59,009 nt of DNA from Magnetococcales bacterium DCbin4 (GTDB lineage: Bacteria; Pseudomonadota; Magnetococcia; Magnetococcales; UBA8363): positions 93,641 through 152,649 of the forward strand of contig PEAN01000002.1 in assembly GCA_002753735.1 (NCBI GenBank), in the 5' to 3' direction. Numbering within the stretch: the stretch's first letter is position 1; each line of letters starts with the position of its first letter. Position numbers and translations under genes: made by a program. Of this stretch, positions 42,441-58,865 are shown in pieces. A model generated the notes under the pieces. It had not been told where the DNA came from. It did no database searches and saw only the letters and a program-made list of their open reading frames with translations.

Positions 42441-42607
42441 TCGATATTAAAAAAACTATTGAAAGAAAAAATGGGTCTCAAGGGATTGCCCCCGGGGTGT
42501 TGATTTTAGGAACAAAGTCAAAAGCGGGGCATGGAAACCTTTTTGTTTGAAGTCAAAATCAAAGTCCTGGGGGCAATCCCTTGATACCCCTTTTTTCTTT
42601 CAATGAT
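42441..42607. repeat. Copy of the dispersed intergenic repeat
   Basis: Between two convergent genes. The ends form an inverted pair (ggattgcccccggggtgtt near 42481 and cctgggggcaatcccttga near 42568) with A/T runs outside. Inside is the shared core gcggggcatggaaacc (42525) followed by tttttgtttgaa, also seen inverted at about 48213 and, diverged, at 58870. Confidence 0.75.
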
Positions 42608-42609
42608 CA

Positions 42610-43437
42610 TCAAAAACGGGATCTTTTCCCCAGTTCCCGGACCAGGCGATCAATGGTCATGGCATCGGCGACCGATACCAGTTTGAACTGAACCCCATAT
42701 TGCTGACTGGCCTGTTGCGGATTTTTTTCATCGCGCGCCCGGGCGATACGACAGACTGAACCGAAGGTGGATAACGGCGTCCCTTGCAACAGGGAGCCAT
42801 GGATGCTCACCCCCACTTTATCACCGATTTCGAGTGGTTCATGCTGCTCTGGACAGGAGAAGGAAAGCCCGCCTGAAGAAAGGTCGATCAGATGACCGTT
42901 GAATCCGGCACTGCCCCGCTTTTGCACGGTCACCCCCATATTGGCCTGAGCCGGGACCAGTACGCGCTGCTGCTGCCGTCTGTGGCGAATACGAATCCTG
43001 CTGGGCATCGACAACTGTATGGCCTGCGCCCCATCCACCATCAATACCTTCTGGAACGTGGTTGCGATTTCATTGGATTCCAGTCCTATGAAATAGCGGA
43101 CCACCACCTGAGGTGTCTTGCGTATTTTGATGTTCCCGATGGTCGGTTCCAATGGGACGATCAAAAAAGATGAAGGGATTTCCATCCCCGTACCATGATC
43201 GGAAAAGCCCGCCCCGTCTTCATCATTGGCGACATCTCCCGGCTTGCTGGTCATTGCCGCGAGCAGATCGCCATCATTTCTCCCCACTCCCAATCCCCCT
43301 GGAAATGGCAATACTCGTGAGCCATAGCGTTCGCGACTTTCACTCCCACCCAAAGCAATCTCCAGCAATGCCGCTTCCTGCTGTGCCCGGAGCAGGGATT
43401 CGAACACTCTTCTTTTGTCATGGTGCGTGTTTTCCAT
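42610..43437 (-). CDS. YcgR-like PilZ-domain protein
   Basis: About 275 residues. The C-terminal PilZ domain has RRQQQR and DLSSGGLSFS (about 185-195), the c-di-GMP ligand motifs. The N-terminal half probably carries a flagellar-brake (YcgR-N) type domain. ATG 43437 is preferred over the TTG just before it. It is the second PilZ protein in the window and sits alone between the lpxD-side genes and the TRAP genes. Confidence 0.85.
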   Translation of the reverse strand: MENTHHDKRRVFESLLRAQQEAALLEIALGGSESRERYGSRVLPFPGGLGVGRNDGDLLAAMTSKPGDVANDEDGAGFSDHGTGMEIPSSFLIVPLEPTIGNIKIRKTPQVVVRYFIGLESNEIATTFQKVLMVDGAQAIQLSMPSRIRIRHRRQQQRVLVPAQANMGVTVQKRGSAGFNGHLIDLSSGGLSFSCPEQHEPLEIGDKVGVSIHGSLLQGTPLSTFGSVCRIARARDEKNPQQASQQYGVQFKLVSVADAMTIDRLVRELGKRSRF

Positions 43438-43482
43438 CAAAAACGATCCACAGCGTCATGAAGAAATGGGATTATGATCGCA

Positions 43483-44868
43483 TCATTGACCATAGATGAC
43501 GCCTGGTAACCAAGTCGCCATGGACGGCCAAAGGGCAAGAAGAAACAAACCGATTACCTGGATCACGATAAAGGGGACCACGCCCCGATAGATATCGGTG
43601 GTCAAAATACTGGCCGGGGCAATGCCGCGAAGATAAAACAGGGCAAACCCGAATGGAGGCGTCAAAAACGAGGTTTGCAGATTGACCCCCATCATCACCC
43701 CCAACCAGACCGGATCCAACCCCATGGCCAACAACGGGGGGCCGACAATCGGAACCACGACGTAGGTGATTTCGATGAAGTCGATGATGAAGCCTAAAAG
43801 AAACATGATCAACATGACCACGAACATCGCCCCCACCGCCCCACCGGGGAGACTCAACAGCATGTCGTGAACCATGTCATCACCATGAAATCCACGGAAT
43901 ACCAAAGAGAAGATTGCGGCTCCAATGAAAATCAAAAACACCATGCTGGTGACACGGAGGGTACTGAGCATGACTTCTTCCAGGGCGGCACGGTTCATCC
44001 GACCCCGCAACATGGCCATGACCAGGGCACCCACCGCCCCCACGGACGCCGCCTCCGTAGGCGTGGCCAACCCGGCCAGAATGGAACCCATGACCGAAGC
44101 GATCAATACCACCGGAGGGATCAGCACCCGCAGCACCCGCAACCACAAACCTTGACTTTGGGCACTGCGTTCATCTGCCGGGATGGCCGGGGCACGTTTG
44201 GGTTGCAGATAGGAAACCGCTGCCAGATAAATGATGTACATCCCGACCAGAAACAGACCGGGAATGATGGCACCGACAAACAGATCACCGACCGAAACGG
44301 TACGCGGGGAGTAGACCCCCATTTTAAGCTGTGCCTGCTGGTAGGAGGCGGATAACACATCACCGAGGATCACCAGGACGATGGAGGGAGGGATGATCTG
44401 GCCCAAGGTACCGGCAGCACAGATGGTTCCGGTTGCCAGAGCGGGGTCATACCCCCGGCGCAACATGGTTGGAAGGGATAGCAACCCCATGGTCACCACC
44501 GTGGCCCCGACAATGCCGGTGCTGGCGGCAAGCAAGGCCCCCACCACCATGACGGAGATGGCGATTCCCCCACGCAAACGGCCAAAGAGGAGCGCCATGG
44601 TCTCCAACAGATCTTCCGCCACATGGGATCGTTCCAGGACCACCCCCATGAAGACGAACAAGGGAACCGCCATGAGGGTATCGTTGATCATGATACCATA
44701 GATGCGGTTGGGGACCGCTTCGAGAAAGGCGGGATCAAACATGTCGAGGGCATAACCGATTCCTGCCCCTGCCAGGGAGGCCCCTGCCAGGGTAAAGGCC
44801 ACGGGATAACCCGCCAGGAGGACCATGGCGACAACAGCAAACATGATGATTGCGGCATATTCTTCCAT
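43483..44868 (-). CDS. dctM: TRAP transporter large permease (DctM type)
   Basis: 461 residues with about twelve membrane helices. Typical family segments are PTMLRRGYDPALATGTICA, GQIIPPSIVLVILGD and GVMMGVNLQTSFLTPPFGF. It is the main translocation subunit for organic acids. ATG 44868 follows AAGGAG by six bases. It lies 3 bp after the small subunit gene. Confidence 0.93.
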   Translation of the reverse strand: MEEYAAIIMFAVVAMVLLAGYPVAFTLAGASLAGAGIGYALDMFDPAFLEAVPNRIYGIMINDTLMAVPLFVFMGVVLERSHVAEDLLETMALLFGRLRGGIAISVMVVGALLAASTGIVGATVVTMGLLSLPTMLRRGYDPALATGTICAAGTLGQIIPPSIVLVILGDVLSASYQQAQLKMGVYSPRTVSVGDLFVGAIIPGLFLVGMYIIYLAAVSYLQPKRAPAIPADERSAQSQGLWLRVLRVLIPPVVLIASVMGSILAGLATPTEAASVGAVGALVMAMLRGRMNRAALEEVMLSTLRVTSMVFLIFIGAAIFSLVFRGFHGDDMVHDMLLSLPGGAVGAMFVVMLIMFLLGFIIDFIEITYVVVPIVGPPLLAMGLDPVWLGVMMGVNLQTSFLTPPFGFALFYLRGIAPASILTTDIYRGVVPFIVIQVIGLFLLALWPSMATWLPGVIYGQ

Positions 44869-44871
44869 GGA

Positions 44872-45396
44872 TCACTCCTTATCCCACCCCAGGAGGGTCA
44901 GACAAGAACCCGCCATCTGACCCACCCCCTGGATCATGACAAGGCCCGGAAAAACCAGAATCAACCCTTTCAACAGCCAGACCCCGTTGAGTCCCCCCGC
45001 CTCGCGCGATCCCTCCCGCATTTCCCAGGCGACCGCCACATAGTCCCAACTCATGACCAGGATGAAGATCATCATGGGGAACAACAGCAACAATCCCCCC
45101 ATCAGGTTGGTCCATGCCTTGGCACGCGGCGACAAGGGGCGATAAAAAATATCGACCCGCACATGTTCGTCATATTTGAAGGTATAAGCGGCACCCAACA
45201 TGAAAATGGTCGCATGGAGGTAGAGCGCCGATTCCTGAACATCGATCCGTCCCCAATCGAACAGGTAACGCATGATGACAACGAAGAAAACGGTCAAGAC
45301 CATCAACAGAATCAGCCAGGCGACGCATTTCCCGGTCCATTCGCTGATTCCATCGCTTACCTGCTTCATGGAAACGAGCAACCGTTTCATCTCCAT
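44872..45396 (-). CDS. dctQ: TRAP transporter small permease (DctQ type)
   Basis: 174 residues with four membrane helices (AWLILLMVLTVFFVVIMRYLF and YVAVAWEMREGSREAGG are visible family features). It works with DctM. No DctP-type binding protein gene is next to the pair in this window, so the ligand cannot be guessed. ATG 45396 is used; ATG 45390 is also possible. Confidence 0.88.
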   Translation of the reverse strand: MEMKRLLVSMKQVSDGISEWTGKCVAWLILLMVLTVFFVVIMRYLFDWGRIDVQESALYLHATIFMLGAAYTFKYDEHVRVDIFYRPLSPRAKAWTNLMGGLLLLFPMMIFILVMSWDYVAVAWEMREGSREAGGLNGVWLLKGLILVFPGLVMIQGVGQMAGSCLTLLGWDKE

Positions 45397-45510
45397 CCCC
45401 CATTTCTGGTACCCGGAAAAACACCCCTACGCCCCCGGTAATTCCGTCTCAACGGGAACGGTCCCACTTTGTCACATTTCTCTCACCAATGCTACCTGAT
45501 CAAATCAGAC

Positions 45511-47190
45511 CTAAAGTCCCTGCGTCAATCGTCCAATGAGATCACCACGGCGAAAAGTGGCCGACAATTGCTGCATCGAAATTTCCCGATCGCCATAAAG
45601 TTCCCGCAACGATTGATCGATATCCCTTGACGAATCCTGGAAATATTGTTCCCCATTGGCATCGATCAACTCCTTGGCCCGGATGAAATTGCGGTGATCC
45701 AACCCATCCAACGATGCACCAAGGTCCAGCAACAATCGATAGCCCATCCGCATGGCGATGAAACACGAAGCGTAACGGACGAACACCGGATCGCGTTCCA
45801 TCGGTCGGCGGCGATGGTTCTCCGCAATCCGATACAACAGAACTGCGGCGATGGTTTGCGCCCCATTGAGTCGATCCGTGAAAATGGTATCGTAAAGTTT
45901 TCCGAAATGCTCCCGGGTCAAAAATTTTGCCTGATGCGGGGCACGCCGCCAAACCGCCAATACCGCTTCGGCTGCGACCCCGGAAGTGATCTCATACGCT
46001 TTTGCCAGGGTATCCATCCGCTTGCGACGATATTCGTATCCATACTCCCTGATGCTCATCTCCAATTGTCGCTGCCGGTCATCATTGGATCGAAGATCCT
46101 TGAGATCCACTGGATTTTGACTGTTGGTCGCCTGAGTGATTTTTAATATGAGGTCACTGTTTTCCCGAGGCAGTTCGTACAGCCTGAGCAATACGCTCGC
46201 ATGCATGGGTAGCGTCAGGCCGCTACGATTCATCTCTTCAATGGTTTTAAAAATTGTCACACACGTTTGACCGCCATTGACGAGTTGCAGGTTTTCCACA
46301 TGGACCTGATAATTGCCATCCTGCAAGGCATTGTATTTGAACCGGTCGCAGATCAACGTCAGACCATTATTAAAGAAGTAAAAGTTTTCGGGACAATCGG
46401 AAACGAGGGTTTTGCGGATCGACTCGTTCACCCGGTTGCCGTGCAGGCCGAGATAACGCCGAATATTGCGCTCCAACAACCGATCCCCATGACGTTCCAT
46501 CAAGGCAGCCACTTCGGTGACCCGAATCCGCCCGATACATACCCTGCTGTAATTCATATCCTCGACTACCGCCTTGCCGGTCAACCGCAGGATGTCATCC
46601 ACGACCTTGACACGTTGCAAAATACGCAGCAATACATCATGGTTGACATGCTCCCAGGTCACCTGTGTGCCGAATCCGCTACGGTCAATTGCCGCCTGAG
46701 CGGCGGCATTCCATGGCAGGCCGTTGTTACAGGCAATGGCCCGGACTTTGGGAATCAATCCATCACGAATCATCGAACGCGCAGCTTCCACCTTGGCCTC
46801 GATGCGTTCATTGATCGCTACCAGTTTTGTCTCTGGATCAAAAAGGTTACGAAGGGCATGAATCAAGGCATTGATGCCAACTCCTTCAAAGTTGGAGGTT
46901 CCCTCCAGTTTTTTTTTGTATTTCCCCTGAAACAAAGTGACCGCAAATTCACCGTCCACCTCCTCGGTCACATGCATGGCATCGACGCCAAAATCACCGC
47001 CCCCCTCCGTCAGACAATCGAAAGTATCCTCTGGCGACAAGTCCAATAGGGTTTGGACACACAGATACACAAAAGCGAGCGATTTCAATTTTCCTTCATC
47101 ATTGATTTTCAATTCCGCCCTGGCTTGGTCACGAATGTCATCCATCACGCCACCCACACGTTGATCGATAATCGACAGATTGATATTCAT
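45511..47190 (-). CDS. AIPR-family abortive infection/phage resistance protein
   Basis: About 559 residues. The AIPR domain is recognisable by NFYFFNNGLTLICD and NLQLVNGGQTCVTIFK in the middle. The N-terminal part has GGGDFGVDAMH and, further on, LFQGKYKK, a spacing like the D...(Q/E)xK site of PD-(D/E)xK nucleases. AIPR proteins act in phage defence, often by abortive infection. ATG 47190 has AAGGA five bases upstream. About 47 bp upstream lies the tail of a lost LuxR-type gene in the same direction. Confidence 0.88.
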   Translation of the reverse strand: MNINLSIIDQRVGGVMDDIRDQARAELKINDEGKLKSLAFVYLCVQTLLDLSPEDTFDCLTEGGGDFGVDAMHVTEEVDGEFAVTLFQGKYKKKLEGTSNFEGVGINALIHALRNLFDPETKLVAINERIEAKVEAARSMIRDGLIPKVRAIACNNGLPWNAAAQAAIDRSGFGTQVTWEHVNHDVLLRILQRVKVVDDILRLTGKAVVEDMNYSRVCIGRIRVTEVAALMERHGDRLLERNIRRYLGLHGNRVNESIRKTLVSDCPENFYFFNNGLTLICDRFKYNALQDGNYQVHVENLQLVNGGQTCVTIFKTIEEMNRSGLTLPMHASVLLRLYELPRENSDLILKITQATNSQNPVDLKDLRSNDDRQRQLEMSIREYGYEYRRKRMDTLAKAYEITSGVAAEAVLAVWRRAPHQAKFLTREHFGKLYDTIFTDRLNGAQTIAAVLLYRIAENHRRRPMERDPVFVRYASCFIAMRMGYRLLLDLGASLDGLDHRNFIRAKELIDANGEQYFQDSSRDIDQSLRELYGDREISMQQLSATFRRGDLIGRLTQGL

Positions 47191-47237
47191 GATCGTCCTT
47201 TTCATGTCTGACCCGCCACCGATCCGGTGATGACTGA

Positions 47238-47306
47238 TCATAGCGGTTCAAACATTTGATACAAAACTGCCTGAGCCGCGGCCTGGACCTTGTTGATTGC
47301 CATGAG
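47238..47306 (-). pseudogene. 3' remnant of a LuxR-type regulator gene
   Basis: Encodes LMAINKVQAAAQAVLYQMF and a stop, matching the C-terminus of the intact LuxR paralogue at 52601 (LMATNKVQAVARAVLYKM). The homology ends at 47306, at a junction close to the rlmJ stop codon. The gene body is missing. The DNA similarity continues through the spacer into the AIPR start. Confidence 0.8.
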
Positions 47307-47326
47307 TGCGCCCCGGATTGACCTTC

Positions 47327-48127
47327 TCATGATTCCGTGTCCCGTTGCGGAACGAACTGATCGACCTCGGCAAGCGCCTCGTCCACACCATGGGGCAGAT
47401 TGACGAACATGAGTCCGCTGCCATACATGCGCCGGGTGGTCTGTGGCTCGGCGATGAACACTTCTCTCCGAGCAAACTTTGGCAACTCGGACCGCTCCAA
47501 CTGATGGCACAAACCGGGATGCAAATGGTCCTTGAGTAGTGGATACCACACCATGATCACCGCTCCGGGACATTTGCGGTGGATCTTTGGAATCAACTGT
47601 CCCACCTGTTCATATTCAGTTTTGACCTCATAACTCGGATCAACCAAGACCAGGCAACGACGTGGTGTGGGTGGCAGAAGGGCCAGGACCCCTTCATAAC
47701 CGTTACGATGGTGGATATGGACATTTTTTTCGCCCCGAAAGGTTTGGCGCAACTGCGCCAGGGTTCCAGGATGCAATTCCATCAGATGAATGGAATCTGC
47801 TGGCCGCAACGACAGGCGGGCCAGCCAGGGCGATCCCGGATAATGGGCGGGTCCAAATCTGGCCCTGATTTTTTCGATCACCTGGCGATAGGGATGATCT
47901 TCCCTTGGCATCCCATGCGCGAGCAACCGTTGAATCCCCTGTTGCGCTTCGCCGGTTTTGGCAGCCATCGGCGATTCCAGGTCATACACCCCCCCACCCG
48001 AATGACTTTCGATATAGGTCATCGGTTGATCCTTGGCAGTCATCCGCGCCAGAATCACTGCCAGGGATGCATGCTTGTGGACATCCGCCGGACCACCGGC
48101 ATGATAATCGTGTTGATAAGACAGCAT
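47327..48127 (-). CDS. rlmJ: 23S rRNA (adenine-2030-N6)-methyltransferase RlmJ
   Basis: 266 residues with the family N-terminus MLSYQHDYHAGGPADVHKH, the ESHSGGG SAM-binding region and the catalytic-type LVDPSYE motif (a variant of DPPYE). Methylates A2030 in 23S rRNA. The 3' end borders the rearrangement junction. The frame is intact. Confidence 0.93.
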   Translation of the reverse strand: MLSYQHDYHAGGPADVHKHASLAVILARMTAKDQPMTYIESHSGGGVYDLESPMAAKTGEAQQGIQRLLAHGMPREDHPYRQVIEKIRARFGPAHYPGSPWLARLSLRPADSIHLMELHPGTLAQLRQTFRGEKNVHIHHRNGYEGVLALLPPTPRRCLVLVDPSYEVKTEYEQVGQLIPKIHRKCPGAVIMVWYPLLKDHLHPGLCHQLERSELPKFARREVFIAEPQTTRRMYGSGLMFVNLPHGVDEALAEVDQFVPQRDTES

Positions 48128-48146
48128 GGAACGATGCGGGTTATCA

Positions 48147-48305
48147 ATTATTAAAAGAAAAAAGGGGGCTTAAGGGACTGCCCCCAGGGTGTTGACATTG
48201 ATTTTTACTTTAAACAAAAAGGTTTCCATGCTCAAGATTTTGACTTCGTTCTTGAAATCAACACCATGGGGGCAATCCCTCAAGCCCCCTTTGTTCTTTC
48301 AATAA
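48147..48305. repeat. Copy of the dispersed intergenic repeat
   Basis: Inverted ends (ttattaaaagaaaaaagggg... and ...ccccctttgttctttcaat) with hairpin arms gggactgcccccagggtg and caccatgggggcaatccct, and the shared core ttaaacaaaaaggtttccat at about 48214. It fills the space between rlmJ and the Hsp70-like gene. Confidence 0.75.
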
Positions 48306-48335
48306 TCCCGAACCGGGGAGGTACCTGGGCAGTTG

Positions 48336-51212
48336 CTATAAAAAGAAAATCTCCCGATAGAGGACCTCTTCGGGCCGTTTTTCAATCTGTTCGACGGAAG
48401 TGGCCAGGCAGAGTTCCACCCGCGACGGCGCGACCGCCTGAATGTACAACTGACGCCCGTGGGAAGGAAGACCGAAGGTGAGACTTTTTTCCTTGAGTTC
48501 CCGAGATCCGCGACGCAACTCGCCCAGGCCCGCCTGCGGCGAAGTCGAGAACACCAACACAAAAGTCCCCCGGGTCGGCACCCCCAATTCTTCCCAAACG
48601 TAATAGGGACCATTTTGCCGCAACACCGGATGGAAACGACCCCGTTTAAGCCCCCCGACAAAGAAGGAGAACGGTGCCTCACCCTGCCGGTTTTCCGAAT
48701 TGGGACCGATCGACAGAAACGGTTCGCCAGGAACCAGCTTCAACAAACCGATGGCAACCCCCGTTTTCGCCGTCGGTTTATAGGGATTGCCCGGATCCCC
48801 GGGGGGGGGCCGATGGATAATCAATCTTTTATCTCCGATGGCATTTTGGATCCGTTCCAGGATCATGTTTTTTTTCAGTCCCCCCTTGGGTGGCTCCCAT
48901 TTATGCATTTTCTCCTGGGTCAGCGCGGCAAACAACGCCTGCACCAACAATGCCCGGCTGGCATTTCCCGCCTGCAGGATATGAATTTCCGCCGGATCCA
49001 CCCCTCGGGAACCAAATGCCTGCTTCATGGCGATAAAAAACCGATGCACCCCCTTGCCGACCCGAGCCACCAGGAAATGGTTGATGTGATTGCGATCCAC
49101 CTGCAAACGGACCGGGGTCCGCTCACGGGCACGGTTGAGCAGTTCCAATTCAAGGGAAACGAACCGCTTGTCGGGATGGCAGGATTGGAAATCAGCCCGC
49201 AAGGTAAATCCGGCATCAACGATTTCCTGACTCAACACATCACCAATCCGATCCGACAAACGGCGGGTCAGCTGAGGTTCATCACCCCCTTCCCCCGTTA
49301 CCCGATCCTGGTCGCCCAGCACATCCCATTGAAAATTTTCCCACAACATCCGCACCTGAGCCATCACCAGGGCCGTATTGGTCTGGGCAACATGGGAATG
49401 ATCCAAAAACAATTCGCACCCGGGAAAACGCTCCCCCTCCGGAGGGATGGAAAAAGGGATCCGATGTTCGCGGCACACTTCCAGGTTGTCGCGAAAGACC
49501 AGGTAGGCGATGTTGGCCACCAGATTTTCTCCCCCCAGATACATGTCGCCGCTGGCACCAAAATGATTGATGACCTGCTCGTAGCCGTTCTTTTCCTCTT
49601 CCTCGGTCGGACTGCGATAAATACCGAAATCAAAATCGGTGCTGCCGCCACCAAAATCGAACACCGCATAGGCGACCCCATCATCGGAGGGTTCAATCTC
49701 CAACTCCTCCAAGGCGCAGGCGGCATAGGCAGCGGGTTCGGATGCCTCTTCGGAAACACGGAATCGATGAATTTTTTCCGAATCCATCAGATTGGCCGGA
49801 AGACTGCGCATCAACCCCCGGGCAAAACTCGCCCGAATCCGATACTTGACCTCCTTGGGATAGGTCACCGGAAAGGTCATGTAATACTCCAGAAACAAAC
49901 CGTTGGAACGGCTGTTGATGAACAATCCCAGATAATAGGCATACAATTCGATCGGATCAAACGGATCATCCTTGCCCACCGTGACCCGTTGCCCGGGGAC
50001 CGGCATGGGAGCGAGCGACGGAGCGATTTCCATCTCATACCCGGTCGCCTGATCGGTAAAACGAAAATGTTCCCCCGAATGCGCATGCAACGGCCATTGT
50101 TTGATGGCGGTCACCATGCTGGCGACAATCACCTGATTGGCCTCGTTCTCACGAAAATTGTTCAACGCTTCATGGGAAAAATGAAAATCATCCCAACGGG
50201 TCAGGGGACGATAGGCTTCCGACTTCCACACATCCAGCAATTGCGGCAGGTTGATAAACTCCAGAATGGTCGGATTTTGATAATCCTCGGGGACGGGTTT
50301 ACGGAAAAAATCGCTCATTCCAACCCGGAGCAGGGTGATCTTGCCATTTTCCCGACAGGCCACCACCGTCGAACTGGTGCCGAAATCGATGGCCACCACA
50401 CCATCCTTGACATCCTTTTCCGGATTGCGGGCTTCCCACGGCTGCTTGAGTTCGACCCCGATCCAACCGGAACCAAAGGGCTTCCTGGGTTGATACAACT
50501 CCCACAACCCTTTTTCCATGTCCAGCAGATAGGACTCCTCCAATACCGGAAGACGGGCACGCAGATAATCCCCCTCCAGCAACAATTGTTTGAGTGCCCT
50601 CAAGGATGGGGGGACAACGGCATGTTGTTTCCTGCTGGCATCCAGGGTCAGGGCGTAGAGTTGATTCAATTTTTCCGTCACCCCGGCAACATCCTGCGGC
50701 AGCAGGGAATTGGCGACGATGAATGAAAAAATATCGCGTTGCGCCACCCGGTGCACCGGAATCACCATATGTTCTTCTTCCGATACCCCCTCCTCCCCCG
50801 AACCGATCCGGACCGTCTGAAACCCTTTGCCGTCAAAGGAACGATCCTTCGACAACAACGCCTCGCGGGAAAATTTTTCATGTTCGCGAAACAGCTTTTC
50901 CCGAGCCACCGATTTCAATTCTTCGACACTCGGCAGCTCCCAGTTCTTGAAGGTATAAATCTGCAACCGGGAAAGATGTTGAAACACTTCTTCCCCCCGG
51001 GCCTGGAAACCGTGCAGCAACCACAGACAACGCAGTTGATTGTCAAAAAGAAATTTGGGCTGTTTGACAAACGAGACAAACCTTTGCTTTTGCAACAGCC
51101 GGAGAATCTCCTGGCGTAACGCCCGTATCTCCACCTCCCGTTCCGGATCGACCCGGGGTTGGAGTTGTGGTGTCAACTGATTTTCACGAAACCAGACCTT
51201 GCTGACTTTCAT
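48336..51212 (-). CDS. Large Hsp70/actin-fold ATPase
   Basis: 958 residues from ATG 51212 (GGAG five bases upstream; the open frame goes to 51476). The first 270 residues are unassigned and helical. The ATPase core then shows phosphate-1 (VAIDFGTSSTVVA, about 273-285), phosphate-2 (AVFDFGGGSTDFDF, about 516-529), a YLGGENL loop and a late LQAGNASRALLV adenosine-type segment. The order fits Hsp70-like proteins of unusual size, with a C-terminal beta-rich part. No substrate-binding domain of DnaK is recognisable. Function unknown. Its 3' end is duplicated at 56.1 kb. Confidence 0.8.
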   Translation of the reverse strand: MKVSKVWFRENQLTPQLQPRVDPEREVEIRALRQEILRLLQKQRFVSFVKQPKFLFDNQLRCLWLLHGFQARGEEVFQHLSRLQIYTFKNWELPSVEELKSVAREKLFREHEKFSREALLSKDRSFDGKGFQTVRIGSGEEGVSEEEHMVIPVHRVAQRDIFSFIVANSLLPQDVAGVTEKLNQLYALTLDASRKQHAVVPPSLRALKQLLLEGDYLRARLPVLEESYLLDMEKGLWELYQPRKPFGSGWIGVELKQPWEARNPEKDVKDGVVAIDFGTSSTVVACRENGKITLLRVGMSDFFRKPVPEDYQNPTILEFINLPQLLDVWKSEAYRPLTRWDDFHFSHEALNNFRENEANQVIVASMVTAIKQWPLHAHSGEHFRFTDQATGYEMEIAPSLAPMPVPGQRVTVGKDDPFDPIELYAYYLGLFINSRSNGLFLEYYMTFPVTYPKEVKYRIRASFARGLMRSLPANLMDSEKIHRFRVSEEASEPAAYAACALEELEIEPSDDGVAYAVFDFGGGSTDFDFGIYRSPTEEEEKNGYEQVINHFGASGDMYLGGENLVANIAYLVFRDNLEVCREHRIPFSIPPEGERFPGCELFLDHSHVAQTNTALVMAQVRMLWENFQWDVLGDQDRVTGEGGDEPQLTRRLSDRIGDVLSQEIVDAGFTLRADFQSCHPDKRFVSLELELLNRARERTPVRLQVDRNHINHFLVARVGKGVHRFFIAMKQAFGSRGVDPAEIHILQAGNASRALLVQALFAALTQEKMHKWEPPKGGLKKNMILERIQNAIGDKRLIIHRPPPGDPGNPYKPTAKTGVAIGLLKLVPGEPFLSIGPNSENRQGEAPFSFFVGGLKRGRFHPVLRQNGPYYVWEELGVPTRGTFVLVFSTSPQAGLGELRRGSRELKEKSLTFGLPSHGRQLYIQAVAPSRVELCLATSVEQIEKRPEEVLYREIFFL

Positions 51213-51507: not shown

Positions 51508-52008
51508 ATGGGGATGCGTTTCATTTCGGCTGCACTTTTGATCACGGGAATGGTTTTCCTGTCCGGACGGGCCAACAGTGCCGATGAACGGTTCACCGAC
51601 CAGGGCAACGGCACGATCAAGGATACGAAATCAAACCTGGTGTGGATGAAAAATGGCAATTGCTGGGGCGGATTGTCCTGGGATGCGGCGGGAAAAGCGA
51701 TCGAAGACCTGAATGCGGGCAACAAAACCTGTGAAGGATACACGGGCAAGGATACCCTGTGGCACCTTCCGACCAAGGATGAACTGATTTCCCTGCTTGG
51801 CGGGGAAAAAGGAAAAGACGGGTTGGCGCTCCCTGAAGGCCATCCGTTTGGCAATGTCCAACAAGGACACTATTGGAGCGCCACCAATGCCGACAAGGAG
51901 GGAACGGCATGGTATGTCAATGCGACCAATGGCCATGTTGATTTTTACGGCAAACAGGAAACCTACTTCACCTGGCCGGTTCAGGCGGACAAGAAACCGA
52001 CCCCTTGA
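51508..52008 (+). CDS. Secreted DUF1566 (Lcl C-terminal-type) protein
   Basis: 166 residues: signal peptide (MGMRFISAALLITGMVFLS... cleavage near ANSA), then a DUF1566 domain with the typical FTDQGNGTIKDTKSNLVW opening, LPTKDELISL and YWSATN. The family is extracytoplasmic, function unclear. ATG 51508 follows GAGGAG. The last third of the gene is duplicated at 56179-56266. Confidence 0.85.
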   Translation: MGMRFISAALLITGMVFLSGRANSADERFTDQGNGTIKDTKSNLVWMKNGNCWGGLSWDAAGKAIEDLNAGNKTCEGYTGKDTLWHLPTKDELISLLGGEKGKDGLALPEGHPFGNVQQGHYWSATNADKEGTAWYVNATNGHVDFYGKQETYFTWPVQADKKPTP

Positions 52009-52300
52009 TCCCCCTGCCCCTGGAACACAACATTCCGGCCCTGGAAGATGGGCCGGAATATCATCTCAGCAGGGAATGGGAAACCGCCTCGATCACGTTC
52101 CGCGATCCACACCTGTTGGATGGCTTCAAGGATCTTCTCGTTACACCGTTTGACCTCATCATCGAATCCGGGCAAGGCCATGACCCAATCCATCAGGTCG
52201 GTAAAGCGGACCGCCAGGGGATCAACCCCGGGTTTGGTATCTGCCAGTGCCATGCCAATTCCCTGCACATCGGTCCACTTCATGCCCCCCCTTTTTTTGT
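51921..52300. repeat. Segmental direct duplication, copy 1 (partner 56179-56560)
   Basis: About 380 bp, nearly identical (a few percent difference) to 56179-56560. It covers the 3' end of the DUF1566 gene and the whole iscX gene. Both copies stop at the same tttttttgt, which in the partner lies inside fdx and here borders the inverted repeat of the element at 52301. Confidence 0.92.
51981..52283 (-). pseudogene. Duplicate iscX without its stop codon
   Basis: The first 64 codons match iscX at 56347-56541 with one difference (QGIG for QEIG). The TGA of the true gene is CGA here, so the frame runs on into DUF1566 antisense sequence for about 36 more codons. The upstream fdx gene is cut away, so the copy has lost its operon. 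It is probably non-functional or makes an extended protein. Confidence 0.8.
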
Positions 52301-52530
52301 GGCTCTTCTAGCGTTAAATGGGGGTAAATACATCGTTTCACTGCAATATAATGATTTTAAATAAATATTAAAAGAAAAAAGGGGGCTTAAGGGATTGCCC
52401 CCAGACCCCTTTTTTCTTTCAATAATTTTTTGAGTGTCAACAATCCCTGATCAATGAATGTGATAAAGTAGAAATAGTTACTGTTTTTCAATGGTTCCAC
52501 ATTTCAACCACATCTAACGCTAGAAGAGCC
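52301..52530. mobile_element. About 230-bp inverted-repeat-bounded element at the rearrangement junction
   Basis: TGGCTCTTCTAGCGTTA at 52300-52316 is repeated inverted at 52515-52531; with two mismatches the similarity extends to about 24 bp. The inside holds another copy of the intergenic repeat and no gene. GGCTCTTC-type ends recall ISL3-family termini. No target duplication is visible: the left flank is truncated fdx/iscX sequence and the right flank is truncated AIPR sequence, which fits recombination or deletion through an element. Confidence 0.7.
52365..52447. repeat. Short copy of the dispersed intergenic repeat
   Basis: A compact palindrome, attaaaagaaaaaagggg...ccccttttttctttcaat, with ggattgcccccagacccc, ending in gagtgtcaac like the longer copies. 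It lies inside the inverted-repeat-bounded element. Confidence 0.7.
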
Positions 52531-52557
52531 ATTGATATTCACGATCATCCTTTTCAT
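52531..52557 (-). pseudogene. Truncated start of an AIPR gene
   Basis: The minus strand reads ATGAAAAGGATGATCGTGAA and continues TATCAAT before the inverted repeat of the element begins. At 47180-47210 the same sequence (two to three differences) leads into the intact AIPR gene. Only the first few codons remain. Confidence 0.75.
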
Positions 52558-52600
52558 GTCTGACCCGCCACCCAAACCGGTGACGACCGATCATACAGGT

Positions 52601-53341
52601 TCAAATCATCTTATACAAAACGGCCCGGGCCACGGCCTGGACCTTGTTGGTTGCCATGAGTTTTTTTTGGGCGTTGGCCAGGTGGAACACGACAGTGCGT
52701 TCAGACAGGTTCAAAATCATCCCTGTTTCCCATGTATTCTTGCCATCGGCGGCCCACCGCAGACATTCCCGCTCGCGCGGGGTCAGGTCAAACCGGATAC
52801 CGGGAGGCTTCCAGCCGCACAATTCAACGTATTTCATGTGCAAGAAAGGAAAAAACGCGCTGACGACATGAAAACTCAAGGAAATGGCATCCAATCCATC
52901 TTTCCTATAATCCTTATTTTGCAACGTCAAAATACCACGGTCACCAAATTTGCCACAAGTTGACAATGAAAAACCATACGCATGGTAACCAAAATCGATG
53001 ATATGCTCAATCGCCGCCTTGACCGGTGCGGGGTGGTGCGGCAGTCGCTTCAAATCATCATTAATAAATACCCTATCATAGATTAACGGAACTTCGGATG
53101 TCCACAGATGCGTGACTCTCGGGCAATGGATGCTGTGAATCGCGACATATCGATCGACAAATTCTTGTTGCCAATTGTGCAATACTTCAATGGTTTGATT
53201 ATTATAAGAATCAGGGAGTTTGACTGTATAAGCATAGGTCTCAAACCCGAACAATGATAATATCTGACCCAACGACTTCTTGAATTCGTCAATGCTGGAA
53301 ATTCTATTTAAATTATCATAAAAATCGAAAATTTTATCCAT
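52601..53341 (-). CDS. LuxR-type autoinducer-binding-domain regulator, paralogue 1
   Basis: 246 residues. An N-terminal autoinducer-binding-like domain and a C-terminal LuxR helix-turn-helix (LTPRERECLRWAADGK... SERTVVFHLANAQKKLM). In the pocket, the LuxR Trp57 and Asp70 positions appear as Phe (HNWQQEFVDRY) and Cys (SIHCPR), and the Trp85 position as Tyr (PLIYD); Tyr61 is kept. An ordinary acyl-homoserine lactone ligand is therefore doubtful. No luxI gene is in the window. AT-rich compared with housekeeping neighbours. The AIPR start remnant lies directly downstream. Confidence 0.88.
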   Translation of the reverse strand: MDKIFDFYDNLNRISSIDEFKKSLGQILSLFGFETYAYTVKLPDSYNNQTIEVLHNWQQEFVDRYVAIHSIHCPRVTHLWTSEVPLIYDRVFINDDLKRLPHHPAPVKAAIEHIIDFGYHAYGFSLSTCGKFGDRGILTLQNKDYRKDGLDAISLSFHVVSAFFPFLHMKYVELCGWKPPGIRFDLTPRERECLRWAADGKNTWETGMILNLSERTVVFHLANAQKKLMATNKVQAVARAVLYKMI

Positions 53342-53395: not shown

Positions 53396-54133
53396 TCAGA
53401 TCATATTATAGAGGATTGCGCGCGCCACAGCCTGTATTTTATTGGATGCCATAAGCTTTCTCTGCGCATTGGTGATATGAAAAATCACGGTCCGTTCGGA
53501 AATATTCAAGATCAATCCCGTCTCCCAGGATGTTTTGCCGTCCGCAGCCCAACGCAAACATTCTTTTTCCCGTTGCGTCAATTCAAACACCCCACCGGGC
53601 GGCCGCCATCCCCGCAACTCGATGTATTTCATGTGCATGAAGGGAAAAAATGCGTTGGCCACATGCAGGCTCAACCGGATGGCATCCAATCCATCCTGCC
53701 TTTGATCCCGGTTTTGCAACGTCAACACCCCCTTGTCCCCATGTTTTCCGTGGGTCACCAACGAAAACCCATGGCCCAGATAACCAAAATCGATAATATC
53801 CTCAAGCACCGCCTTGACCGGCTTGGGCTGATACGGCAACAACTTCATATCCTGCTCAAAAAATGCCCTGTCATAGATCAGGGGCGTTGGCGCGTGCCAC
53901 AGGTGCTTGAACCTGGGGCAATGGGTCATGTGTATCGTCACATAACGATCAACAAATTCCTGATTCCAGTTATGAATTGTTTCAAAAGAACCGTCATTGT
54001 AGGAATCGGGTAGTTTCGCCGTGTAGACCCAGGTTTCAAAGCCACATTCAGAAAGAAAGTTACCTACTGAACCCCTGAATTCATCAATATTTGCGATATT
54101 TTTTATTTTTTCGATGATTTCTATGGCGTGCAT
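53396..54133 (-). CDS. LuxR-type autoinducer-binding-domain regulator, paralogue 2
   Basis: 245 residues from ATG 54133 (GGGGGG upstream; frame open to 54181). Very similar to the downstream paralogue across both domains, with the same pocket changes (QEFVDRY, THCPR, PLIYD) and an HTH ending SERTVIFHITNAQRKLM. The pair is a tandem duplication in one direction with 54 bp between. It may heterodimerise with its neighbour; ligand and targets unknown. Confidence 0.88.
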   Translation of the reverse strand: MHAIEIIEKIKNIANIDEFRGSVGNFLSECGFETWVYTAKLPDSYNDGSFETIHNWNQEFVDRYVTIHMTHCPRFKHLWHAPTPLIYDRAFFEQDMKLLPYQPKPVKAVLEDIIDFGYLGHGFSLVTHGKHGDKGVLTLQNRDQRQDGLDAIRLSLHVANAFFPFMHMKYIELRGWRPPGGVFELTQREKECLRWAADGKTSWETGLILNISERTVIFHITNAQRKLMASNKIQAVARAILYNMI

Positions 54134-54288
54134 CTTCAGAACCCCCCTGAACGACCCAGATATCAGTTCATTATAAAGCAATAATCATAACCATTCTATT
54201 TCAACTCAATCTTGTACAACAGCAACTCCAGATACCTGCAATATCTTACAGCTTGAAACCATTGTCCAGTTCGATGCACTCTTTGTCC

Positions 54289-54418
54289 CACGGGGGAGAA
54301 GCACGGGGATCAGAGGGGGGGATTACTTGAAAAAGGGGGGACATCACTCAGAGGGGGGGTATTACTGCGCGGGGGGTTCATAGTCAGAGGGGGGGGCGCA
54401 TTTGCAGTGGGGAACATT
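54289..54418. repeat. G-run repeat array
   Basis: Three degenerate units of about 36-38 bp, each starting TCAGA followed by 7-8 G and containing a second G-run of 4-6, at about 54310, 54348 and 54384. Spacer pieces such as attacttgaaaaa and attactg recur. It resembles multi-repeat ends of IS21-type elements, but no istA/istB is present. It also has G-quadruplex potential on the plus strand. It is the main content of the gene-free 54134-54555 interval. Confidence 0.55.
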
Positions 54419-54555: not shown

Positions 54556-55913
54556 CTACGGCTTGATGGTTTTAAGGAGTTCCAAGGCTTGGTGTTGTTT
54601 TGGTGACGGCGGTACGCCCGGGGAAAAGGTTGGGGCATCCTGGATGTCGTTGATTGTTCGGCAGGTGTTGCGGGTCATGGTAGCGAGATCGTTTAGAAGG
54701 GTTTGGAAGCTGTGAGTCGTGGATCCATCCGGAAGCCTTTTGGACTGGATCTTATTCAGGGTGACCCGGGAACGCTTGGCCGGGGTAACCAGGATCCGCA
54801 GAGCGCCTGATGTTACCGTGTTCTTCAGCGAAAAGCAGGGGACGCCAAGCCTCGGCCATGTGCCACTCGACGTAGTAGGCCAACATGCAGAGGAAAATGT
54901 GCCCCCGTACCCGGCCATCCAGTCGATGATGCACAGGTCGGACCTGCAGATCTATTTCCTTGATTGAGCGGAAGGCCTGTTCTACCTTGGCCAACCGTTT
55001 GTAGCTGCGAACTGTGTCCATCGCATCCATGCGGTCGGCAGGCAAGCGGGTACGGACAATGTAGATCCCATCCAGATCCGCTCCGGTGTTGATATTCGCC
55101 TGATTGATATGCCAATTGAAAGATGCTTCTCCGATTTCAAGCTGGAAGTGCCTGGCCATCTTGTATCGGTTGATCACCCGTCCCACCCGCAAGCCGATCT
55201 TGTCCTGACCGCACAGGCGTCCAGTTGCCACAGACCTTTGGATGGGTTCCATCTGGCGGACGGTCTTGGCCAGCAGGGTCAAGCGGGTACGGGCACGTCG
55301 GTTGGCCAGATCCTGGTTGTGGCAGGCGACCAGGCGTTCGCCGGGAAAATCGGGATGGGTGAATTCCGCAAGGTTGCGACCGTCGAACAGGCCGAACTGA
55401 CACCCCTTTTCAGGCATCAGTGAGCGGATGGCATCGGAGCGTAAAGCAGTGATCCAACCAAGGCCCGGCATTTTCTGGAAGGCGTTGATGTGGGTTTGAG
55501 TGATCATCCCCCGATCTCCGACCATGACCAAGTTTTGGATACCGAACACTTCCCGGATTCGGTTGACCTGGGGCAACAGGGTCTTGACGTCGGATGTGTT
55601 AACAAGGACGCGAGGCGATGAGTTCCGCCATTCCGAGCCGCTGCATGGCGGTCATCACCGCCTGAACATGTCCGTGGTGTCTGGCATGAAGGATCTGGAA
55701 CGACGGTTCGATTGGCACCAGGGGCTCGTCGCGCAGTACCCGACGGATGCGATCAATCTGCAACTCCGACAGCCCACGCAGGTTGGCCAGGGTGCGGTTC
55801 CTGGTCTTGCCGTTCTCGCGATAGGACTCGCGCTGTAGAACTGCAGGCAGGGAATCGCGATTTGGGATGATGTGGATGCATATGCCGTTATGATTGCAAT
55901 TTATCCAATCCAT
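54556..55913 (-). pseudogene. Decayed IS1634-type (IS4-like) transposase
   Basis: Three pieces on one strand. 55599-55913 is the N-terminus (RDSLPAVLQRESYRENGK, TLANLRGLSELQIDRIRRVL). A central DDE part, 54752-55576 (VMVGDRGMITQTHI, ALRSDAIRSLM, NLAEFTHPDFPGERLVAC, SYKRLAKVEQAFRSIK), follows after a stop and an apparent internal deletion of roughly 150 codons just after the N-terminal piece. A frameshift near 54800-54850 then puts the C-terminus (SKRLPDGSTTHSFQTLLNDL) in another frame to 54556. Not functional as a transposase. Confidence 0.87.
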
Positions 55914-56040: not shown

Positions 56041-56090
56041 CAAAACCCTGGGGAAAATCCCTTGAGACCCTTTTTTCCTTGATCACTTAC
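56041..56090. repeat. Fragment of the dispersed intergenic repeat
   Basis: Reads caaaaccctggggaaaatcc then cttgagacccttttttcctt, one arm of the repeat. It is joined on the right to the duplicated fragment of the Hsp70-like gene, as the 48147-48305 copy is joined to the intact gene. Confidence 0.6.
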
Positions 56091-56091
56091 A

Positions 56092-56176
56092 ATAAAAAAG
56101 ATCTCCCGATAGAGGACCTCTTCGGGCCGTTTTTCAATTTGTTCGATGGAAGTGGCCAGGCAGAGTTCCACCCGCG
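56092..56176 (-). pseudogene. 3' fragment of the large Hsp70-like gene
   Basis: About 85 bp matching 48338-48424 with a handful of differences; the natural stop is lost. The fragment ends where DUF1566 sequence begins, so two separate genes' 3' parts are fused here. Confidence 0.85.
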
Positions 56177-56178
56177 AT

Positions 56179-56266
56179 TGCGACCAATGGCCATGTTGAC
56201 TTTTACGGTAAACAGGAAACCTACTTCACCTGGCCGGTTCAGGCGGACAAGAAACCGACCCCTTGA
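56179..56266 (+). pseudogene. 3' fragment of the DUF1566 gene
   Basis: Corresponds to 51921-52008, including the stop codon, and encodes ATNGHVDFYGKQETYFTWPV in the original frame. It belongs to the duplicated block whose partner is 51921-52300. The 5' two thirds are absent. The rest of the interval from 55914 holds the upstream end of the IS and the intergenic repeat fragment. Confidence 0.85.
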
Positions 56267-56346
56267 TCCCGCTGCCCCTGGAACACAACATTCCGGCCCT
56301 TGAAGATGGGCCGGAATATCATCTCATCAGGGAATGGGAAACCGCC

Positions 56347-56541
56347 TCAATCACGTTCCGCGATCCACACCTGTTGGATGGCTTCAAGAATCTTCTCGTT
56401 ACACCGTTTGACCTCATCATCGAATCCAGGCAAGGCCATGACCCAATCCATCAGGTCGGTAAAGCGGACCGCCAGGGGATCAACCCCGGGTTTGGTATCT
56501 GCCAGTGCCATGCCAATTTCCTGCACATCGGTCCACTTCAT
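56347..56541 (-). CDS. iscX: Iron-sulfur assembly protein IscX
   Basis: 64 residues, the family's normal length. Sequence is characteristic: MKWTDVQEIGMAL, DPLAVRFTDLMDWV, LPGFDD, NEKILEAIQQVWIAE. IscX binds IscS and modulates cluster assembly. ATG overlaps the fdx stop (ATGA), and the order hscA-fdx-iscX matches the isc operon of proteobacteria. A duplicate lies at 51981-52283. Confidence 0.95.
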   Translation of the reverse strand: MKWTDVQEIGMALADTKPGVDPLAVRFTDLMDWVMALPGFDDEVKRCNEKILEAIQQVWIAERD

Positions 56542-56879
56542 GCCCCCCCCCTTTTTTTGTCCACATGGATATTGACCGAATATTCCGGGATGGTCACGGT
56601 GATCCCATCCAGATCATCGGTGATCTGCAACTGACACCCCAACCGACTGGTAGGGGTCACCCCAAAAGCACGGTCCAACATGTCTTCTTCCTCATCATCG
56701 GCCGCTTCCAAACGGGGATACCACTCCCTGGCGACGATGACATGACAGGTTGAACAGGCCAGGGAACCTTCGCATGCCCCTTCCAGTGCAATATCATGTT
56801 CATGGGCTGCCTCAAGCACCGTCGTTCCCGCGTCCACTTCCACGGTCCGGTTCATCGGCAAAAAAGTAATCCTGGGCAT
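56538..56879 (-). CDS. fdx: ISC-type [2Fe-2S] ferredoxin
   Basis: 113 residues from ATG 56879, which has GGAGG eight bases upstream; the frame continues to 56930. Cysteine ligands are CEGSLACSTC plus a late GCQL Cys, as in adrenodoxin-like Fdx. It supplies electrons for iron-sulfur cluster assembly. It lies 31 bp after hscA and overlaps iscX. Confidence 0.95.
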   Translation of the reverse strand: MPRITFLPMNRTVEVDAGTTVLEAAHEHDIALEGACEGSLACSTCHVIVAREWYPRLEAADDEEEDMLDRAFGVTPTSRLGCQLQITDDLDGITVTIPEYSVNIHVDKKRGGA

Positions 56880-56910
56880 GAAGCGTTCCTCCACGGGGGT
56901 ATCAATCGGT

Positions 56911-58803
56911 TCAAGAGCGATGAAAATCATCCACCTTCCGGCCCGTCATCACTTTGCGCACACTTCGATCCATCCGCCGTTCCGCAAAGAAGACCGTTTC
57001 CCGATCCAAGGTTTCCCGGGCACGATTGATCACCTCGGGGTCATCTTTCTGGCTCGCCTCCCACAAGGCCAACATCACCCCTTTGACCCGTTTGAGTTCC
57101 GCCTCATCCAACAAGTCGCCATCGTCGCGCAAAGCGGCACCAGCGGCACTCAGCACCCGTTCCGCCTCCACCCGGGCCTCATTGAGCAACCGCCGTTGCC
57201 AATCCTCTGCGCCATGGACCATCGCTTCACGCAACAGGCGTTCAATTTCCTCATCCCCCAAGCCGTAGGAGGGTTTGACGGCAACCGACTGTTCGATCCC
57301 GGTCGTCTGTTCCCGCGCGGACACGGTGAGCAGACCATCGGCATCGACCTGAAACGTCACCCGGATCCGGGCGGCGCCCGCCGTCATCGGAGGGATGCCC
57401 CGCAATTCAAAACGGGCCAGCGACCGGCAATCACCCACCAATTCCCGTTCCCCCTGGACCACGTGGACCGCCATGGCGGTCTGACCGTCCTTGAAGGTGG
57501 TGAAATCCTGGGAACGGGCAGCGGGGATGGGGGTATTGCGGGCAATGATTTTTTCCACCAGTTCACCCATGGTTTCGATCCCCAGGGAGAGTGGGGTCAC
57601 ATCGAGCAGCAACAATTCGCCCCGGGTGTTGCCCGCCAGTTGTTCTGCCTGAATCGCCGCCCCCAATGCCACCACCTGGTCGGGGTCCAGATCGGACAAG
57701 GGTTCACATCCAAAAAGATCCTTCACGAATTGCCGCACCATGGGCACCCGGGTCGATCCGCCCACCAGGACCACGCCTTGAAGGTCATTCGCGCCGACCT
57801 GGGCATCCTTCAGGGCACGCCGACACGGAAGTCCCGTCGCCCGAACGAGGTCGGCGATCAAACCTTCAAACCGTTCCCGGGTCACCCGGGTTTCAAACCT
57901 GCCGCCGTCGGGGCGGTCCAGCACCACCTCACAAACCATTTCCCGGCTCAATTGTTCCTTGGTCTGCCGGGCGACACGTTTGCATTGTTGCAGCAATCCG
58001 GGATCAGGATCGGTCACACCCATCGCCTGCAGGAACAATTCGCTCAGACGGTGATCGAAATCATCCCCCCCCAGGGCGGAATCGCCGCCGGTCGCCATCA
58101 CCTGGAACACCCCCTTGCTCAAGCGCAGGATGGAAATATCAAACGTCCCGCCACCCAGGTCATAGATGGCATAAAGCCCTTCTCGTCCCTGGTCCAGACC
58201 GTAGGCCAAGGCGGCCGCCGTCGGTTCGTTGACCAGGCGCAACACGTCCAAACCTGCCAGACGGCCAGCATCCTTGGTCGCCTGACGCTGGGCATCGTCG
58301 AAATAGGCGGGCACGGTGATCACCGCCCCATGGAGCGATCCCCCCAGGGATTCCTCCGCGCGCCGGGCCAGGGATTCAAGAATTTTTGCCGATGGTTCCA
58401 CGGGGGAAAGTCGGTGGTGGCGGGTCACGATCCGTACCATCCCCCCTTCGCCCGCCTCCAGGGCATAACTGGTACGATGGCCCGAGGCCCGCAGATCATC
58501 GAGACTGCGGCCCATGGTTCGTTTGACCGAAGCGATGGTATCGGCGGGATAACGCAGACCTGCGGCAATCGCTGCATCACCGACCAGTACGGGCCCCTCG
58601 GGGGGGTAGCAGACCACGGAGGGGAGTGCGATCCGTCCTTCATCATCAGGGATGCAGGCAGGTTTTCCCTGAAGGTCTACCGCAGCAACCAGGGAAAAGG
58701 TCGTTCCCAAATCGATTCCCACCACCCGTTTACGATCTTCGGGACGGCGTTCATGGGGACGTAATGATTGCCCCGGTTCGGCAATATCCAACAATAAAGA
58801 CAT
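56911..58803 (-). CDS. hscA: Fe-S cluster assembly chaperone HscA
   Basis: 630 residues, a specialised Hsp70: [62 protein letters not shown] and a substrate-binding half beginning [17 protein letters not shown]. Works with HscB to release clusters from IscU. ATG 58803 has AGGA nine bases upstream. hscB, which usually precedes it, is not next to it here; an intergenic repeat and an opposite-strand ORF follow instead. Confidence 0.95.
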
Positions 58804-58865
58804 CGTATCCCATCCTGAAAGAAAAATGATCCTTACCAAGGTTTTTACTAATGAAATAAAATATA

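Follow-up and report, generated by a model that had tools for sequence, protein, structure and literature searches.

Two LuxR-tail/AIPR-start stretches in a Magnetococcales genome as probable scars of a tandem duplication with complementary gene loss

The window analysed here, i.e. the whole stretch of DNA under study, is the final 59 kb of contig C146 in a genome of 148 contigs and 4.5 Mb. Read 5′ to 3′ along the minus strand, it carries genes for HSP70 and a ferredoxin, a transposase-like open reading frame (ORF), the two LuxR genes LuxR-B and LuxR-A and a 230-bp repeat element, and further along the same strand an ATPase-type ORF, rlmJ, the remnant of a LuxR tail, the AIPR gene and then TRAP-transporter and PilZ genes. 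The genes are located as follows.

56911-58839, minus strand: HSP70 gene
56538-56930, minus strand: ferredoxin gene
53396-54181, minus strand: LuxR-B, intact LuxR solo, orthologue of the single LuxR of genus-mate G004 (78.6% identical)
52601-53341, minus strand: LuxR-A, intact LuxR solo (Autoind_bind and GerE)
51508-52008, plus strand: Lcl_C-domain gene, between the 230-bp element and the ATPase-type ORF
48336-51212, minus strand: intact copy of a large ORF, putatively of actin/HSP70-like ATPase type, upstream of rlmJ
47327-48127, minus strand: intact rlmJ (Pfam RsmJ/RlmJ, 2.5e-51), the ancestral upstream neighbour of the LuxR gene
47244-47307, minus strand: remnant of a LuxR 3′ tail, about 20 codons followed by a 1-nt deletion, 87% identical to the LuxR-A tail (GerE HMM, E 3.6e-5)
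45511-47190, minus strand: intact AIPR/AbiU-family gene, 559 aa from its MNIN start, within a longer ORF that starts at 47241

The genus-mate G004 (L100) has the single-copy order ferredoxin, ATPase, rlmJ, LuxR and DUF2064 gene with no AIPR, its single LuxR gene lying directly downstream of rlmJ and the DUF2064 gene 930 bp after LuxR. The ORF at 48336-51212 is 87% identical to its G004 counterpart and stands in the same order. Its HSP70-like identity, which was considered first, was dropped because Pfam gave no family (threshold 1e-3), and it keeps an ATPase-type label that is suggested by one item of evidence, an N-terminal DFGTSST motif. It may be noted that the TRAP transporter genes (DctM, DctQ) and the PilZ gene of the window occupy 42610-45400, between AIPR and the DUF2064 gene. 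As these genes are missing at the syntenic G004 locus, AIPR may have arrived together with them, or G004 may have lost them.

Self-BLAST of the window aligned 47179-47307 with 52531-52661, where 114 of the 131 columns are identical (87%, E 3.6e-37), which agrees with the original prediction that 47179-47306 and 52531-52660 would match at about 85%. Divided by segment, the identity is 53/61 in the LuxR tail, 40/47 in the following 47 nt and 21/23 in the final 23 nt. The stretch contains the tail of the LuxR gene, a spacer, a ribosome-binding region and AIPR codons 1-4, such that a ribosome-binding-like AAAAGGA and a start codon precede the family-conserved NIN codons. Both borders of the similarity are abrupt, one lying after AIPR codon 4 (ATG/GTG AAT ATC AAT) and the other inside the LuxR helix-turn-helix tail, and a search of the whole genome found the 131-nt sequence at just these two places. 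Since AIPR codons 1-4 are conserved across the family, the last 12 nt of the similarity, at 52531-52542, are genuine AIPR sequence, and the 52.5-kb copy does hold an AIPR start, as had been proposed. The predicted asymmetry was also found, with AIPR intact and LuxR reduced to a tail at 47 kb, and LuxR-A intact and AIPR cut after codon 4 at 52.5 kb. The 47-kb tail is a decayed remnant owing to the 1-nt deletion ahead of its stop codon. A plasmid DNA search with 47100-47400 as query gave 0 matches, and predicted promoters and terminators in 47000-48400 were no more numerous than in shuffled sequence.

The duplicated sequence, its junction and its remnants are located as follows.

56179-56560, no strand: duplicated block on the copy 1 side
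56084-56177, minus strand: second-copy 3′ end of the ATPase-type ORF, 92% identical to 48330-48425
54752-55576, minus strand: transposase-like ORF (DDE_Tnp_1), at the presumed place of the copy-1 rlmJ
54235-54404, minus strand: remnant of the copy-1 rlmJ-LuxR intergenic DNA upstream of LuxR-B, matching that of G004
52531-52542, minus strand: remnant of AIPR codons 1-4 (GTG AAT ATC AAT), cut by the element
52301-52530, no strand: repeat element of 230 bp that lies at the duplication junction and is bounded by perfect 16-bp terminal inverted repeats GGCTCTTCTAGCGTTA
51921-52300, no strand: duplicated block on the copy 2 side, 97% identical to 56179-56560, stopping exactly at the element

On both sides a duplicated block meets the element exactly at its end, at 52301 and at 52530. 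The ferredoxin-side block stops at 52300, and its counterpart in copy 1 runs unbroken into the ferredoxin gene. The terminal repeat GGCTCTTCTAGCGTTA has 31 matches genome-wide with at most one mismatch, as against 0 for a reversed control. No target-site duplication was found at the flanks of 52301-52530, as would be expected of a junction that arose when two copies of the element recombined. This copy of the element family is without a transposase gene, and its inner palindromic sequence is related to repeats at 42457-42607 and 48147-48306. In copy 1, rlmJ was undetectable at 54752-55576; the transposase-like gene at this former rlmJ position appears to be frame-disrupted, being split into two or more ORFs across 54752-55913. 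The pair of LuxR-A and LuxR-B was seen in copy 1 alone and a single tail in copy 2, and no empty-site copy was seen.

We consider it highly likely that the locus records a tandem duplication of a LuxR-AIPR segment with complementary loss, and not a signal-controlled defence system. In the ancestor, the genes for ferredoxin, the actin-like ATPase, rlmJ, LuxR (one or more genes) and a horizontally acquired AIPR would have followed one another in this order, with AIPR about 58 bp downstream of LuxR. A tandem duplication across the dispersed 230-bp inverted-repeat element would then have copied everything between the ferredoxin 3′ end and AIPR codon 4, probably when copies of the element on sister chromosomes recombined, with the duplication junction itself severing the AIPR gene of copy 1 after codon 4. 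Copy 1 would subsequently have lost the ATPase body and rlmJ while keeping LuxR-B and LuxR-A. In copy 2 the ATPase gene, rlmJ and AIPR would have remained, and a deletion running from the end of rlmJ to the LuxR tail would have taken out the LuxR body. The two LuxR-tail/AIPR-start stretches would in that case be scars of the duplication and not a functional unit. The original reading of a unit that was duplicated and then broken is thereby upheld, for a unit larger than was proposed (ferredoxin 3′ end to AIPR start). The dispersed inverted-repeat junction and the complementary decay are as in other tandem duplications with reciprocal gene loss at repeat elements, with no unusual difference here.

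LuxR genes were also looked for beside AIPR elsewhere, in a set of 80 AIPR relatives drawn from a range of bacteria and archaea, each taken with flanks of up to 5 kb. In the flanks available, some contigs having little upstream DNA, 0/80 had a LuxR/GerE-type ORF by a LuxR-family HMM and a GerE-region HMM. The GerE HMM did pick up the 20-codon remnant in the genome itself, and elsewhere it found homologues with as little as 37-41% identity. Across 48 genomes of the order, which are also those covered by the class-level LuxR search, there are 13 places with a LuxR homologue (in 8 genomes) and 17 with AIPR (in 15 genomes), and only the present window has both on one contig. The AIPR HMM found no AIPR near the LuxR genes of genus-mates. 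Restriction-modification (RM) methylases lead the Pfam tally of upstream neighbours of AIPR, and there is no LuxR family among the 25 families listed. In five cases (L045, L070, L072, L073 and L075) AIPR lies directly downstream of same-strand ORFs of 3.4-3.5 kb, which the overall neighbour tally suggests to be Eco57I/MmeI-type methylases. The LuxR-AIPR adjacency is a one-lineage event, and the recurrence in other genomes that the original prediction had looked for was absent from everything searched.

These counts bear most directly on the proposal that a LuxR protein senses a small molecule and drives a downstream AIPR effector. Before the duplication the two genes were neighbours on one strand, and quorum sensing is reported to influence phage defence in other bacteria (PMC12988980). 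Yet none of the 80 AIPR relatives has a flanking LuxR gene, the LuxR homologues in 8 of the 48 genomes stand without AIPR nearby (the present window excepted), and LuxR and AIPR have since been separated in the lineage. A search for luxI (PF00765) also gave no match in the genome, a result to be read with the fact that the control genomes gave none either. We regard such a module as very improbable. What stands of the original proposal is the ancestral adjacency in this lineage, with the duplication and complementary breakage that followed; an undescribed signal-gated defence system is not supported, given 0/80 AIPR relatives and 1/48 genomes. An equally slender chance attaches to LuxR-A or LuxR-B still controlling the separated AIPR gene in trans, as a lineage-specific density- or signal-controlled abortive-infection effector.

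A different history, in which the incoming AIPR gene joined the 3′ flank of the copy-2 LuxR by microhomology and never stood beside the copy-1 LuxR, so that the shared codons are coincidental, fits the fact that the similarity stops within 12 bp of the AIPR start, and AATATCAAT is a possible microhomology. But this requires the AIPR joining point to coincide with the element end at 52531, and the shared stretch includes AAAAGGA and a start codon before the conserved NIN codons, which makes it an unlikely route, if somewhat less so than the sensing module. That the 131 nt are nothing but a mobile-element end, the circumstance in which the original prediction would have fallen, has next to no probability. 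The dispersed element does terminate exactly at 52531, where the break coincides with its end. Yet the 131 nt fall outside it and have 2 copies in the genome as against about 31 for the terminal repeats, and these copy numbers refute the idea.

LuxR-A and LuxR-B form a tandem pair, both with Autoind_bind and GerE domains, and their proteins are 67% identical. The LuxR protein tree has few well-supported forks, and by it LuxR-A may or may not derive from LuxR-B in this lineage. A third LuxR paralogue of the same genome (L104 on contig C136, 496-1257) is 57-63% identical, and a related element copy lies about 1.3 kb downstream of it, at 2605. In their domains LuxR-A and LuxR-B resemble LuxR solos with an autoinducer-binding domain (PA1136 / TIGR03541 ‘reg_near_HchA’, SdiA-like), with a weak TIGR03541 match that scores under every equivalog cut-off. 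They differ from these in reading CP or CY where an Asp-Pro (DP) motif is usual, and Cys is found in 7/7 genus homologues. This is the position that we take, by eye from TraR/LasR motifs, to be that of the canonical acyl-homoserine-lactone-contact Asp (TraR D70). With the position so assigned, LuxR-A and LuxR-B appear from their sequences to be solos without this Asp, and they would regulate something other than AIPR.

The AIPR protein matches Pfam AIPR (PF10592; 1.6e-48, 166 bits against a gathering cut-off of 25) over residues 256-506 and the PADLOC AbiU model (3.8e-42) over residues 37-483. Its family-conserved start is M18 of the long ORF (MNIN.SIIDQR, 47190), and not ATGAAAAGG or the ORF start. 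This start is common to 71 relatives, with MNIN(A)SIIDQR shared from Betaproteobacteria (71% identical) to cyanobacteria and archaea. The gene is horizontally acquired, and is widely transferred between lineages with a patchy spread over phyla. It shares the AIPR domain, the AbiU match and this patchy spread with the AIPR/AbiU group (AbiU1/AIPR of PMC3506569); RM methylases are among the commonest upstream neighbours of these relatives, whereas the gene here is flanked by rlmJ and the TRAP transporter, without an RM operon. A local match of about 150 residues to the MZA-system AIPR protein MzaE (NCBIfam NF041935) reached 71 bits against an equivalog cut-off of 1050, so the protein is not MzaE. 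In an alignment of 72 sequences, D70, E81 and Q88 are invariant and K90 is near-invariant, in the setting GVDA...EF....FQxKY, which would resemble a PD-(D/E)XK site. Sequence searches of the PDB with the protein and with its alignment gave no match. The AlphaFold model (mean pLDDT 83, pTM 0.48) has FokI as a weak best fold match in the PDB (E 0.04, prob 0.99, TM 0.17; none below 1e-3), followed at lower rank by the nickase Nt.BspD6I and the restriction enzyme EcoT38I. AIPR proteins have been described with an N-terminal HEPN domain (Makarova et al. 2012, PMC3506569), whereas PD-(D/E)XK-like residues are seen here, and an N-terminal HEPN does not appear to be supported for the present subfamily, the fold evidence being weak. 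Because of these residues and the weak FokI-like match, we read AIPR as probably a stand-alone nuclease-type defence effector, most likely a PD-(D/E)XK-nuclease-type abortive-infection or restriction effector acting alone and presumably now transcribed from the rlmJ side; we found little literature on AIPR mechanism.

The analysis thus removes a candidate defence system and puts in its place a well-supported history of element-bounded tandem duplication with complementary loss. It also assigns the gene to a widely transferred AIPR subfamily whose conserved residues are nuclease-like, and this could help in designing biochemical tests of AIPR proteins.
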